A stretch of 64,000 nucleotides of DNA, taken from NCBI RefSeq assembly GCF_000373365.1, contig NZ_KB891274.1:1-64000 (forward strand). Direction: 5' to 3'. Made by a program: the position numbers and the translations under genes. This DNA is from Parafrankia discariae (GTDB taxonomy: Bacteria; Actinomycetota; Actinomycetes; Frankiales; Frankiaceae). This document shows, one piece after another, positions 45,329-53,655 of the stretch. The notes beneath the pieces are model-generated. The model did not search any database, had not been told where the DNA came from, and was given only the letters and a program-made list of their open reading frames with translations. How positions within the stretch are numbered: position 1 is the first letter of the stretch; every line of letters starts with the position of its first letter.

Positions 45329-46176
45329 GGGTTTGGATTTCGCCGGGTGAGTTTCGCTGGTGTCGCTGAGCGGTGGCCGCGATGGGTCGGTGAGGGCCTC
45401 GTCGATGGTGCGCCGGGCGATGCGGGCGAGGGTGGGGTTGCTGTTCTGGTAGTGGGGCAGGGCGATGAGTCCGAAGGACAGCGCCCAGCCGCGGCCTCGT
45501 GCCCAGGTCGCGTCATCGGCTCCGATCGTGTTTCGGAACGCTTCGCGGTCTTCGGCGGGCAGCAGGGTCCAGGCGGCCATCGCGTCGCAGGCCGGATCTC
45601 CCACGCCCAGGCCGCCGAAGTCGATGACGGCCTGTAGACGGCCGGCGTGGGTGAGTAGATTCCCGGGGAGGAGATCGCCGTGGATCCATACTGGCGTGCC
45701 GTGCCAGCGGGGTGCGCGCACGGCCGTGTCCCATACGGCGGTGGTCCCCCGGTGGAGTCTGCCTGTTGCAGGGCTGTGAGGAAGTTTCCCAGTTCGATGG
45801 CCAGGCGGTGTGGGTCGGCGGCGGGCTCGGTGAGTAGGTCTTCGCCTTCCAGCCACTGGTGGACCGACCAGGGCCAGGGATAGCCCTCGCCGGGTGTACC
45901 CGTCGCGAGTGGGACCGGGATGTCCAGTGGTAGTAGTGGCGCGAGCTGCGGCAGCCAGTGGTGTTCCTTGTCTGTCTGCCCGGCCGCTGCGGGGGTGCGG
46001 GGCAGCCGTACCGCCAGGTCCACGCCAAGGCGGTAGATCGCGTTGTCAGTGCCCGTGGAGCGGACCGGTTGGAGAGGAAGGCTTGCCCACGCGGGGAACT
46101 GTGCGGCGATCAATCGGCCCACCAGCGCATTGGTGATGACCTCGTGGGTGTGCGTTCTCCGGTCGGGCTCGGACAT
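45329..46176 (-). pseudogene. aminoglycoside phosphotransferase-like kinase with internal deletion
   Basis: From ATG 46176 (GGCGGAGG upstream): AAQFPAWASLPLQPVRSTGTDNAIYRLGVDLAVRLPR, KEHHWLPQLAPLLPLDIPVPLATG and WSVHQWLEGEDL. After LQQADSTGG the frame changes (near 45745-45765) and some 40-50 family residues are missing. The catalytic part then follows: APRWHGTPVWIHGDLLPGNLL (Brenner-type HGDLxxGN), VIDFGGLGVGDPACDAMAAW and ARIARRTIDEAL. Catalytic motifs survive, but the reading frame is broken. The usual stop is lost, so it reads into the uridine kinase remnant. Confidence 0.78.
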
Positions 46177-46315
46177 GGTGCCTCCGCCTCTCCTGGGCCG
46201 TGTGGGTACTGCGCGGTCGCGGTGGTCCGCAGGGTGGTCGCGCTGCTCGCGTAGGAGACGATGGAGTGTATTGATCAGGGCTGGCCGGTGGGCGCTTCGG
46301 TGGGATGATCGTCGG

Positions 46316-48237
<1,922 letters not shown>

Positions 48238-48241
48238 TCAT

Positions 48242-48370
48242 TCACCGGGAGTGCCGTTTCGGCCAGATGTGTCGCGGAGGTCGGTCGCGCGTCTGCGTGT
48301 CCGTGTATCCGCGGATGCTTCGCGGTTCCTTTTCCGCGGGTCCTGGCTTCGGCTGGAGATTCTGCGGCAT
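48242..48370 (-). CDS. possible upstream ORF in the rox leader
   Basis: 42 codons from an ATG at 48370, six bases after the rifamycin-associated element, ending in TGA 11 nt before the rox ATG. The product is basic and Pro/Arg-rich (RDRPPRHIWPKRHSR), with no recognisable family and no clear ribosome site. It may be chance, or it may couple translation to rox. Low confidence. Confidence 0.25.
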   Translation of the reverse strand: MPQNLQPKPGPAEKEPRSIRGYTDTQTRDRPPRHIWPKRHSR

Positions 48371-48375
48371 GACCC

Positions 48376-48394
48376 GGGTCTTGCCGCAAGCCCC
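48376..48394 (-). promoter_or_regulatory. rifamycin-associated element (RAE) upstream of rox
   Basis: On the minus strand the 19 bases are GGGGCTTGCGGCAAGACCC, an inverted repeat with one mismatch that corresponds to the RAE described upstream of rifamycin-inactivating genes in actinobacteria. CTTGC-GGCAAG forms the core. An AT-rich GATATAG on the upstream side (48411-48405) may be part of the promoter. Expected role: rifamycin-inducible expression of rox. Confidence 0.75.
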
Positions 48395-48535
48395 CCGGTG
48401 TGCTATATCTTGAAAGTGGCGGGGAGTGGGTGAACCTCCCTGCTTTTGTCTTTCCTGGGCCGTCGTGGGTGGGAGAAGTTTCGCCGCGGCGGCCGGGCGG
48501 CCGGTGTATGTGTGTGGTGCCGCGTCGGCGTGGGG

Positions 48536-50062: not shown

Positions 50063-50099
50063 TTGCAAATGACGTCACTGTGACGCCACAATGGCGTCA
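50063..50099 (+). promoter_or_regulatory. leaderless promoter with TGACGYCA operators for the RHH gene
   Basis: TTGCAA (50063-50068), 18 bp, CACAAT (50087-50092), then 6 nt to the ATG. Overlapping it are TGACGTCA (50070-50077, self-complementary) and TGACGCCA-CAA-TGGCGTCA (50081-50099, perfect arms). The sites are close enough for several RHH dimers to bind side by side. Confidence 0.6.
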
Positions 50100-50665
50100 T
50101 GGAGCTTGCGTCGTATGTCGACAGTCTGCGCCGGGACCTCGCCGTCGCCGCGGAAGCGGGAGGAGAGGAGGCGCTGGCGCTGGCGGAACGGCTCGTCGCC
50201 CCCCTGGAGTCGGCGGCCCGGCTTGTCTTGTTGGAGGCGCTCGCGGCCGCCGCGGAGGAGATCAGCTGCGAGCTGGCGCCCGGTTCGGTGGATGTGCGGC
50301 TGCGGGGCAGCGACCCCGATTTCGTCGTGACGTCACCATGGCCAGGTGACGACGTCACCGGTGACACCGGTGGTGGTGCGGGCGCCGCCGGCGGGCCCGC
50401 GGTGCCGCCCGGGGCCGGCACGACGAGCCCGAGCCCGAGCCCGGGCGCGGAGGTGCCGGGTGCCGGTGACGGCCGCACGGCGCGGGTCACGCTGCGGGTG
50501 CCGGAGCATCTCAAACCCCGCATCGACGAGGCCGCCGCCCGGGCGGGCCTGTCGGTGAACACCTGGCTGGTGCAGGCACTCACCACCGCCCTCGATCCGG
50601 CTGCCGTCAGGCCACCGCGTGCCGAGGCGCCGCGAGGGCACCGTTACCGCGGCTGGGTCCGCTGA
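50099..50665 (+). CDS. ribbon-helix-helix transcriptional regulator (HicB-like C-terminus)
   Basis: 188 aa from ATG. The N-terminal part is helical (ELASYVDSLRRDLAVAAEAGGEEALALAERL) and ends in EISCELAPGSVDVRLRGSDPDFVV. A Gly/Pro-rich linker (about 88-123) joins it to a C-terminal ribbon-helix-helix domain: ARVTLRVPEHLKPRIDEAAARAGLSVNTWLVQALTTAL. No toxin gene is adjacent; the next gene is a DUF4097 protein, so this is not a classical toxin-antitoxin pair. TGACGYCA sites on its own promoter suggest autoregulation. Confidence 0.8.
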   Translation: MELASYVDSLRRDLAVAAEAGGEEALALAERLVAPLESAARLVLLEALAAAAEEISCELAPGSVDVRLRGSDPDFVVTSPWPGDDVTGDTGGGAGAAGGPAVPPGAGTTSPSPSPGAEVPGAGDGRTARVTLRVPEHLKPRIDEAAARAGLSVNTWLVQALTTALDPAAVRPPRAEAPRGHRYRGWVR

Positions 50666-51635: not shown

Positions 51636-52358
51636 TCAGGTGGTTCCGAGGGTGGACAGCTGCGGGTACAGGGCGCGGGGGTCCTGGCTCAGTGCCGCTT
51701 TGAGGGCGACGGTGCCCGCGTCGGCGAGGATCTCGAGCCGGCCGGCGGCCAGGCCGTCCAGCGCGGTGCGTACCACCGCGGCGGGGTCGCTTTTCGGCAC
51801 GTCCCAGCCGGCCATCATGTCGGTGTCGACGGAGCCGACGAACAGGCCGCTGACCAGCGTGCCCTGGCTGGCGAGTTCGAGGCGTACACCGTTGGTCAGG
51901 CTCCAGGCCGCCGCTTTGGCGGCCGCGTAGGCGTTGGCGCCGTCGTGGGACATCCAGGACAGGGCGGAGAGCATGGTGAGGATCGCCCCGCCGCCGTTGC
52001 GTCCGAGGGTGGGGGCGAAGGCGCGTATGACGTGCAGCGGCCCGAAGTAGTTCGTCTCGATCTCCCGGTGGATCGCGGGCAGGTCGCCGGTGACGAGGTT
52101 GGTGCGGGTGGAGATCCCCGCGTTGTTGACGATGAGGGTGACGTCGGTGGCGGTGGCGGCCGCGGTGGTGATCGACGCCGGGTCGGTGATGTCCAGGGGC
52201 AGGGCGACGACTCCGGGCCGGCGGCTGGTGATCGTCTCGGGGGTGCGGGCGGTGGCGTAGACCTTGGCCGCGCCGCGGTCGAGGAGCTGGGTGACGAAGT
52301 GGCGGCCCATCCCGCGGTTGGCTCCGGTGACGAGCGCGATGCTTCCGGCGATTTCCAT
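51636..52358 (-). CDS. short-chain dehydrogenase/reductase
   Basis: 240 aa from the ATG at 52358; the open frame extends much further upstream but through the divergent araC gene. Motifs: TGANRGMG (cofactor loop), LDITDPAS, NNAGISTRTNL, Ser in LTMLSALSWMSHDGANAYAAAKAAAWSLTNG (Tyr and Lys present). It should be a NAD(P)-dependent oxidoreductase. Divergent from an AraC regulator with a shared 26-bp inverted repeat, so probably AraC-controlled. Confidence 0.9.
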   Translation of the reverse strand: MEIAGSIALVTGANRGMGRHFVTQLLDRGAAKVYATARTPETITSRRPGVVALPLDITDPASITTAAATATDVTLIVNNAGISTRTNLVTGDLPAIHREIETNYFGPLHVIRAFAPTLGRNGGGAILTMLSALSWMSHDGANAYAAAKAAAWSLTNGVRLELASQGTLVSGLFVGSVDTDMMAGWDVPKSDPAAVVRTALDGLAAGRLEILADAGTVALKAALSQDPRALYPQLSTLGTT

Positions 52359-52404
52359 GCCTACGACCGTAGGGAGCCGGTGATGCGCCGGTCGATGCGT
52401 CTGT

Positions 52405-52430
52405 GAGTCAGATTCATATCCGTCTGACTC
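52405..52430. promoter_or_regulatory. inverted repeat between SDR and araC-type gene
   Basis: Perfect arms GAGTCAGA (52405-52412) and TCTGACTC (52423-52430) around 10 bp. TAGGGT (52433-52438) follows and ends 7 nt before the AraC ATG, so that transcript is probably leaderless and the site lies on its promoter. Confidence 0.65.
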
Positions 52431-52445
52431 GCTAGGGTCGCTGTC

Positions 52446-53453
52446 ATGGATCTGCTGGCGGATGTTCTCGCGGTGTCCGGGGTGCGTGGCACGGTCGCCG
52501 CCCGGATCAGGGCCGGGTCGTCGTGGGGATGGTGGGCGCGGGACGTCCGCGGGGCCGCGTTCCACGCCGTGACCGCGGGAACCGCCTGGCTGGGTCTGCC
52601 CGGGCAGCCGCCGCGTGAGCTGCTGCCCGGTGACGTCGTCCTGCTCCCGACCGGGACGGAGCATCTGCTGGCCGGTGACGAGCGGATCGCGGCCCGTGGT
52701 GGTGATCATCGCTCCGACTCGTGGGAACGGGCCGGTGACGGGACGGTGCGGATCGGTGTGGGTCCGGTCCGCACCCACATCCTGTGTGCGCACTACACCC
52801 ATGATCCGGCGGTCACCACGCAGGTTCTGGGGTTGCTGCCGGAGATCGTCCACATCCGTGGGTGTCCCGGCGGGACCGGCCTGGATGACACGGTGCGGCT
52901 GCTGGGTCGGGAGTTGGCCGATCCGCGGATCGGCGGTGCCGTGGTCCTGGACCGTCTCGTCGATGTTCTGCTCGTGCAGCTGCTGCGGGTCTGGCTCGCC
53001 GGTGCCCCCGACCGTCCGCGGACGTCGTGGCTGGGCGCGCTGGGTGATCCGGTGGTCGCCGCCGCGCTGCGGGAGCTGCACGCCGATCCGGCGCGGGCCT
53101 GGACGACCGCGAGCCTGGCCGGGGTGGTCGTGGTGTCGCGGGCGACGCTGGCCCGGCGGTTCGCCGCCGCGCTCGGGCAGAGCCCGGGGGTCTACCTCAC
53201 CCGGTGGCGGATGGATCTGGCGGCGTTGCGTCTGCGGGACACCGAGGAGTCGCTGGACGTGGTGGCCCGGTCGGTCGGGTACAGCTCGGTCTACGCGTTC
53301 AGCCGCGCGTTTCGTCGGGCCCGTGGCGCCCCGCCGGGGCGCTACCGGCAGACGGCGCGCGGGAGCGGTACCGGATCGCGCCGGTGGCATGGCGGGGTCG
53401 AACAGGGTGCGGCCGGCCTCGCGCGGCGCGGTCTCGTCCTCCCGCCGGAGTAG
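52446..53453 (+). CDS. AraC family transcriptional regulator with cupin sensor domain
   Basis: 335 aa from ATG. The N-terminal cupin (about 1-165) reads AFHAVTAGTAWLGLPGQPPRELLPGDVVLLPTGTEHLLAG, typical of the cupin_6 AraC group. The C-terminal HTH (about 195-300) has two helices-turn-helices: ASLAGVVVVSRATLARRFAAALGQSPGVYLTRWRMDLAALRLRDTEESLDVVARSVGYSSVYAFSRAFRRARGAPPGRYRQ. These regulators usually activate a divergent oxidoreductase, here the SDR. Confidence 0.9.
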   Translation: MDLLADVLAVSGVRGTVAARIRAGSSWGWWARDVRGAAFHAVTAGTAWLGLPGQPPRELLPGDVVLLPTGTEHLLAGDERIAARGGDHRSDSWERAGDGTVRIGVGPVRTHILCAHYTHDPAVTTQVLGLLPEIVHIRGCPGGTGLDDTVRLLGRELADPRIGGAVVLDRLVDVLLVQLLRVWLAGAPDRPRTSWLGALGDPVVAAALRELHADPARAWTTASLAGVVVVSRATLARRFAAALGQSPGVYLTRWRMDLAALRLRDTEESLDVVARSVGYSSVYAFSRAFRRARGAPPGRYRQTARGSGTGSRRWHGGVEQGAAGLARRGLVLPPE

Positions 53454-53655
53454 GAACCGCCCGGGACGGTGACGCGGCCCAGGGCCACGCCTCAGTACCC
53501 CACGGGTTCCTCCGTCCCGATCTCGTCCGGGGTCGGGCGGGGGCCGATCATCATCGCCACCCACCCTCTTCCGTTCCGTTCCGTTGCGGAAACAAAACAA
53601 AATGGAACGGAACGACGGGGGTGGATACGTAGAGCTACCAGGACTCCCCCACATC

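Follow-up and report, generated by a model that had tools for sequence, protein, structure and literature searches.

The rox locus of Parafrankia discariae

The window, meaning the whole stretch of 64,000 nucleotides of Parafrankia discariae DNA that was analysed, carries the rifampin monooxygenase gene rox on the minus strand (46735..48231). Its product scores 892.5 bits against the NCBIfam equivalog model NF033145 (rif_monoox; cut-off 800), and the top PDB match for the protein is 5vqb, a rifampin monooxygenase. The gene next upstream lies in tandem with rox, in the same strand direction. Other neighbours in the window are a GNAT acetyltransferase (46043-46810, plus strand), a protein with a weak HicB-like C-terminus (50099-50665, plus strand), and a short-chain dehydrogenase inside a longer open frame (51636-53654, minus strand).

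Upstream of rox, a motif match and the comparison with relatives place a rifamycin-associated element (RAE), a 19-bp near-palindrome, at 48376..48394 on the minus strand. Its letters, read on the minus strand from 48394 to 48376, are GGGGCTTGCGGCAAGACCC, and they are numbered here as element positions 0-18. The site has one mismatch to the 19-bp consensus, and the RAE is matched twice in the window (a single site, on both strands) against 0.07 expected. Both the RAE and rox are real at this locus, the RAE being far beyond chance, and the site is a member of the RAE type by its 19-bp palindrome and its position upstream of a rifamycin-resistance gene. This bears out the sequence-only reading, which had placed an RAE before a Rox-type gene, and rox belongs to the known set of rifamycin-induced genes; the distance that it gave as 145 bp is 144 nt, from the end of the RAE to the rox ATG. 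In addition, an open reading frame of 42 codons (48242..48370, minus strand) begins on the sixth base past the RAE. Its existence and coordinates were correctly described in the same reading, while the gap between its stop codon and the rox ATG is 10 nt rather than 11.

Distribution and conservation of the RAE

The rox relatives compared here are the best 80 of a longer list, obtained by a scan of genome contigs, which together with the window make up 81 loci. Among these, 74 have an RAE at no more than four mismatches and within 600 nt upstream of rox, and the remaining seven, which have none at this threshold, were left out (L035, L041, L044, L049, L051, L052 and L069). The gap from RAE to rox varies from 42 to 223 nt across the rox loci. 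Conservation extends past the 19 bp, from about -33 to +63 when the RAE start is taken as 0, with few, specific near-invariant columns outside the RAE. Inside the element, the GGG/CCC arms reach 95-100% conservation across the 74 rox loci, themselves picked at no more than four mismatches. Of 35 genomes in the family to which the window belongs, 28 hold the exact RAE pattern, as do 30 of 396 sampled from the phylum; both counts include the genome of the window.

Among the genes with the strongest rifampicin induction in Mycobacterium smegmatis are helD, arr and a rox homologue (PMC6529629). The full set assembled here comprises 152 RAE loci, which are related rather than independent, and divides into rox (100), helR (32), rph (10), arr (5), rgt (2) and no gene class (3), where the classes from L089 onward were assigned by clustering with BLAST and inspection of the proteins, and the rgt class by inspection of two proteins. 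An NCBIfam check covered one helR, one rph and one arr member, with the rph match falling below the whole-protein cut-off as the gene is truncated by the end of the locus. Loci from L089 onward were found by the exact RAE pattern with three N positions, so their RAE letters are conserved by choice, and they were oriented with a matrix built from the rox loci, which biases them toward the rox-like direction without selecting loci. Behind the 149 RAE elements with an assigned gene, no regulator gene is found. The same RAE architecture was also seen in other classes of the phylum (L129, L149-L157). Furthermore, 35 plasmid records, 28 of them from Streptomyces, include a segment that resembles the element of the window, and the RAE element may be a plasmid-borne traveller.

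An attenuator or hairpin in the sense leader RNA was considered and rejected. The RAE stem has a paired fraction of 0.914 against 0.910 when shuffled, with 22 pairs changed on both sides against 19.0 (137 unique sequences). The nested dyad TGCGGCA-GACCC/GGGTC-TGCCGCA has a paired fraction of 0.746 against 0.747, with 5 such changes against 6.1 in the same 137 unique sequences. The RAE behaves as a fixed DNA motif, with no covariation as sense RNA.

Divergent -10 signatures on either side of the RAE

On the rox side, element positions 30-35 read CAGAAT in the window (48359..48364, minus strand), a putative sense -10 element. The string C/T-A-N-A-A-T stands at these positions in 138 of the 152 RAE loci, and A31 and T35 occur together in 151. 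On the far side, positions -12 to -17 read TATCTT on the plus strand (48406..48411), a putative antisense -10 element, and TANNNT is found there in 150 of 152 loci. Both signatures are present at fixed offsets in 149 of 152 loci, the exceptions being L078, L097 and L108. When offsets from -8 to +19 were scanned in 151 loci, the sense pair was found in 150 at offset 0 and in at most 51 elsewhere, and the antisense hexamer in 149 at offset 0 and in at most 4 elsewhere. Both hexamers lie 21-26 bp out from the RAE centre (position 9). In a -10 element, A(-11) and T(-7) are the letters captured by sigma region 2, and the conserved A and T on either side of the RAE correspond to these two letters.

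We infer that the RAE core, TTGCSGCAA, holds one TTG-type -35 element per direction, the two overlapping and each 19 bp from its -10. In the window, the sense -35 would be TTGCGG (48384..48389, minus strand) and the antisense -35 would be TTGCCG (48381..48386, plus strand), while the rox transcription start, placed 7 nt past the sense -10, would be expected at about 48352 (48350..48354, minus strand). The placement of the sense -35 agrees with helD promoter 2 of M. smegmatis, whose -35 is described as lying within the RAE that overlaps it (PMC10719064). The putative -35 elements match TTGACA at three of six places, the proposed spacers are 19 bp, and a sigma-70 scan with spacers of 16-18 bp returned no promoter at the window's element. 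A MerR-type operator centred in the 19-bp spacer was considered and set aside, since the spacer dyad is poorly conserved and both expected starts put the RAE centre at about -33. By sequence, the RAE sits at the midpoint of a divergent promoter signature with two-fold symmetry, from which we infer promoter activity in both directions.

Another string near the RAE, TATAGC at positions -13 to -8 of the sense strand, was considered as the rox -10 and set aside, since only 118 of 152 loci have it, none of the five arr loci among them, in comparison to the 150 of 152 loci that keep the antisense hexamer. All five arr loci have the latter, in the forms TACAGT, TATAGT, TATGGT, TAAAGT and TACAAT. The absence of TATAGC from arr loci that retain the antisense hexamer speaks for selection acting on the antisense reading. 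The genome of the window has 22 other weak matches to the RAE core, and seven of them served as a control. Six (L083-L088) are without both -10 signatures, and the seventh (L082), which has both, is a degenerate RAE before helR. This second RAE of the window's own genome, GGGGCTTGCGTCAAGGCCT, is located at L082:1501-1519 (G000:C135:30430), between groEL-like and helR-like genes as read from their open reading frames.

A terminator on the antisense strand

Past the putative antisense -10, the plus strand of the window carries a hairpin with its stem at 48419-48426/48436-48443, followed by a T-run at 48444-48453. The expected antisense RNA would be about 36 nt long (48418..48453, plus strand) and would have its own terminator hairpin at its start. 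The fold of the hairpin (-16.3 kcal/mol, z -2.5) is equalled in 6 of 200 shuffles and is not extreme, and a pattern scan places the terminator at 48422-48447, its stem differing somewhat (two sites in the stretch against 0.4 expected). A second terminator-like hairpin with a T-rich tail is found on the antisense strand inside the leader (48309-48325, plus strand).

Many rox loci have the same arrangement, their antisense strand reading GGCAAGGAG...CTCCTTGCC directly past the -10 and then running into a T-run. By a simple terminator score, 80 of 151 RAE loci (L091, too near the contig end, was left out) lie above the 99th percentile of 755 mononucleotide shuffles on the antisense strand, in comparison to 2 of 151 when the opposite strand of that DNA is scored and 0 of 151 downstream of the sense -10. 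By class, the terminator is found in 62 of 100 rox, 9 of 31 helR, 7 of 10 rph, 1 of 2 rgt and 0 of 5 arr loci, and in 1 of 3 loci with no gene class. Its absence in arr and in most helR loci indicates that it is not essential. Of the 90 loci that pass the 95th percentile, 61 have a stem beginning at offset 5, where the antisense +1 is expected.

Compensatory double changes number 19 in 55 registered loci, against 3.0 (maximum 11) with arms shuffled between loci, a count biased by the choice of these loci for good stems. In an arm test without such selection, a locus's own arm pairs at 6.56 of 8 positions against 5.91 (sd 0.06) when arms are swapped between loci, and at 6.36 against 5.74 (sd 0.07) in 128 non-redundant loci; arr alone shows no clear difference (4.80 against 4.56). 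Upstream of rox, a terminator so oriented would serve only RNAs that are initiated at the RAE or close to it and that head away from rox.

That the antisense promoter serves a divergent gene in general was considered and rejected, as a coding-like open reading frame within 250 nt is found in 15 of 100 rox, 4 of 31 helR, 1 of 5 arr, 1 of 2 rgt and 0 of 10 rph loci, and in 0 of 3 loci with no gene class. At one locus upstream of arr (L139), a coding-like open reading frame starts at antisense +22, and a genuine divergent gene may be expressed from the antisense promoter there.

Proposed mechanism

The reading that we favour, with moderate confidence, is that the RAE forms the common core of two overlapping divergent promoters of the sigma-A/HrdB type, symmetric about its centre, and that the 42-codon frame, if viewed as an upstream open reading frame (uORF), lies outside the induced mRNA. 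The sense promoter, Ps, would lead to rox. The antisense promoter, Pas, would point away from rox and run straight into an intrinsic terminator, giving a dead-end RNA of about 36 nt whose hairpin would begin at about the expected first base, in the window and, judged by score, in 62 of the 100 rox loci. Given the footprint of RNA polymerase, Ps and Pas would not be occupied together, and the overlapping footprints would leave one promoter in use at a time, with the polymerase in one of two orientations. Without the drug, Pas, which has the better -10 (TANNNT), would hold the polymerase in futile short cycles and keep Ps low, and as its product is ended at once, this idling would not disturb the neighbours. 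With rifampicin, the balance would tip toward Ps, whether by means of a factor that recognises the RAE or because drug-bound polymerase fails to cycle at Pas. The uORF start codon would lie inside Ps and would be absent from the induced mRNA.

The symmetric pair of -10 signatures, the antisense terminator with its compensatory changes, the uORF without coding signal and the rgt remnants in some leaders are read from the letters of the loci themselves, and the roles of both hexamers as working -10 elements, the -35 elements, the start sites and the switch are proposed from them. The divergent promoter model is consistent with the loss of helD induction on partial deletion of the RAE, which is already partly explained by the lost -35 in a review (PMC10719064).

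Regarding how the drug is perceived, we raise tentatively the possibility that the RAE has no dedicated regulator and that RNA polymerase is itself the rifamycin sensor, with Pas and its terminator acting as a trap that would sample drug-free enzyme and hand the site to the rox, helR, rph, arr or rgt promoter. This possibility is favoured by the antisense -10 kept across five gene families and other classes of the phylum, and by the lack of a regulator among the assigned genes. It is disfavoured in that a polymerase stalled by the drug at Pas would go on covering Ps, and in that promoter overlap abolished induction in Bacillus subtilis, when convergent promoters were moved into a clash (PMC12802891). 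A factor is favoured, on the other hand, by the GGG/CCC arms kept beyond the needs of a -35, by the RAE being without covariation and by the length of the 19-bp spacers.

A factor might also act without any antisense promoter. In this arrangement, which we consider unlikely, the flanking hexamers would be the outer contacts of a rifamycin-responsive factor that binds the RAE as an extended dyad and activates or de-represses a single sense promoter. The RAE is possibly bound by some factor according to the available text of PMC12802891; moreover, the strongly conserved arms described above would not be read by sigma, and GC is found on both sides, at positions 26-27 and -8/-9. However, the outer motifs are unlike each other (CANAAT versus TANNGT/TANGTT), having in common only the A and T captured by sigma, and one of them has the antisense terminator immediately behind it, a sign of an antisense transcript.

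Another arrangement, which we regard as quite unlikely, has two sense promoters in tandem, as has been suggested for mycobacterial helD, where the upstream hexamer would be a sense -10, the RAE would be transcribed and the uORF would lie at least partly in the mRNA. The helD gene of M. smegmatis is reported to have two sense starts, of which the upstream lies some 20 bp ahead of the RAE, with no antisense start named in the available text (PMC10719064). As ANNNT is its own reverse complement, the upstream hexamer is readable as a sense -10, CAACNT, and a sense transcript spanning the RAE has a good fold (48351-48400, -23.4 kcal/mol, z -2.35). Read in the sense direction, though, the first base of this hexamer is C (78%), in comparison to T (99%) when read as antisense, and there is no conserved -35 upstream, the stretch there being the variable terminator loop. 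Moreover, the start would be expected at about position -6 rather than the reported -20, and the nested hairpin is without covariation.

The 42-codon open reading frame

That the 42-codon uORF encodes a translated regulatory leader peptide between the RAE and rox, as the sequence-only reading had raised as a possibility, is very improbable, for although its 42 open codons end next to rox, an SD-like motif precedes its start column in none of the 74 rox loci, no signal by codon position is found, its frames are not conserved, its ATG falls inside the inferred promoter, and the gap in which it lies differs widely in length between rox loci. A frame of at least 42 codons, with any start, arises in 16 of 2000 dinucleotide-shuffled leaders, and one of at least 30 codons in 139 of 2000; its length by itself is somewhat unusual. 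An ATG, GTG or TTG stands at the uORF start column in 57 of 74 rox loci and in 106 of all 152 RAE loci. Across the 74 rox loci, the frame opened at this column is found in each of the three phases with respect to rox, and its end may lie ahead of rox, at rox or within it. With the start column conserved and the frame behind it not conserved, the position of the open reading frame is no evidence of a gene. Before rox itself, 62 of the 74 rox loci have an SD-like motif.

Mismatches number 2741, 3572 and 2952 by codon position, with no excess at the third, and stops are about equal in the three frames (9, 8 and 9) of the 38 leaders of at least 90 nt. In the other three rox loci of the same genus with an RAE, the start codon is replaced by GTA and GCA in two and is ATG in one, which opens a frame of 13 codons. 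The combination of conserved start, ribosome site, conserved frame and coding signal that would mark a translated uORF is not found. In addition, the uORF ATG occupies element positions 24-26, between the RAE and the putative sense -10, and is thus upstream of the expected rox start (about position 42, 48352), so the codon would be absent from the mRNA; no further ATG, GTG or TTG occurs in the frame past the first codon. On this evidence, the 42-codon open reading frame is probably not a working gene. In the literature on leader peptides or uORFs and rifampin, no title concerning the RAE appeared among the matches listed. As a caution, short open reading frames behind an RAE should not be read as leader peptides.

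Long rox leaders and rgt remnants

Part of the window's leader (48232..48316, minus strand) aligns with other rox leaders, the best alignments being to L012 (score 48, z 12), which has no rgt match of its own, and to the leader end of L018 (score 38, z 8), which has one. The two rgt genes of the RAE set (L146 and L117) start 60 nt past the RAE, with start codons taken from the longest frame. In a tblastn search of seven leaders of 209-223 nt, made with filters off and a tiny database, the rox leaders of L004, L013, L017 and L018 (219-223 nt) match the rgt N-terminus at E 7e-7 or better, partly in shifted frames, and in L004, L013 and L017 one rgt match starts exactly at leader position 61. The L054 leader matches at E 4e-4, no rgt match is found in L001 and L057, and the window's leader is at chance level (E 3.1). 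A Pfam scan of the L004 leader gave weak matches below the cut-off, including glycosyltransferase family 28 at E 0.075. In the leaders of L107 and L128, an rgt-like peptide was seen by eye.

From these matches we conclude that some rox genes took over an RAE after deletion of an intervening rgt (rifamycin glycosyltransferase) gene. Judged indirectly, from its alignments, the 144-nt leader of the window is probably a further decayed form of such an rgt remnant leader.

Comparison with known systems

The RAE itself is already known, as a 19-bp palindrome upstream of rgt, rox and helR in Actinobacteria (PMC10719064), and the same palindrome is found here upstream of rph and arr too. In the available text of that review it is described as overlapping the sense -35, and neither the symmetric antisense -10 nor the antisense terminator appears there. 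An antisense promoter or terminator at the RAE is not described in the available parts of PMC8655204, PMC10719064, PMC6529629, PMC12802891 and PMC12825309, and the available text of PMC11464796 does not mention the RAE. The symmetric promoter and terminator architecture was thus not met in the literature covered, which is no proof of novelty. As of January 2026, the precise mechanism of the RAE remains to be elucidated (PMC12802891). For rifamycin sensing through the RAE in Actinobacteria, a symmetric promoter with a dead-end RNA is a concrete and cheaply testable idea.

The rifampicin alarm of helD/pps in B. subtilis (PMC12802891) is alike in that an antisense promoter stands beside the sense promoter of a rifampicin-protection gene. 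In that system, however, the promoters face each other and do not overlap, with about 39 bp between the starts, whereas the promoters proposed here would stand back to back and overlap, and the antisense RNA would end at once. At the window, the convergent arrangement of the B. subtilis dual promoters is not found, the inferred promoters diverging from a common core.

The bidirectional promoters of bacteria (PMC12825309) likewise consist of pseudo-symmetric DNA that binds the polymerase in two exclusive orientations, as would be the case at the RAE. In Escherichia coli, strong activation of one arm of such promoters can repress the other by competition for polymerase, while the basal activity of five tested bidirectional promoters is too low for competition (PMC12825309); the first of these results speaks for the divergent promoter model and the second against it. 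In contrast to these promoters, the symmetry at the RAE would be centred on the -35 elements and the RAE itself, with the -10 signatures 21-26 bp to either side and kept across five resistance-gene families.
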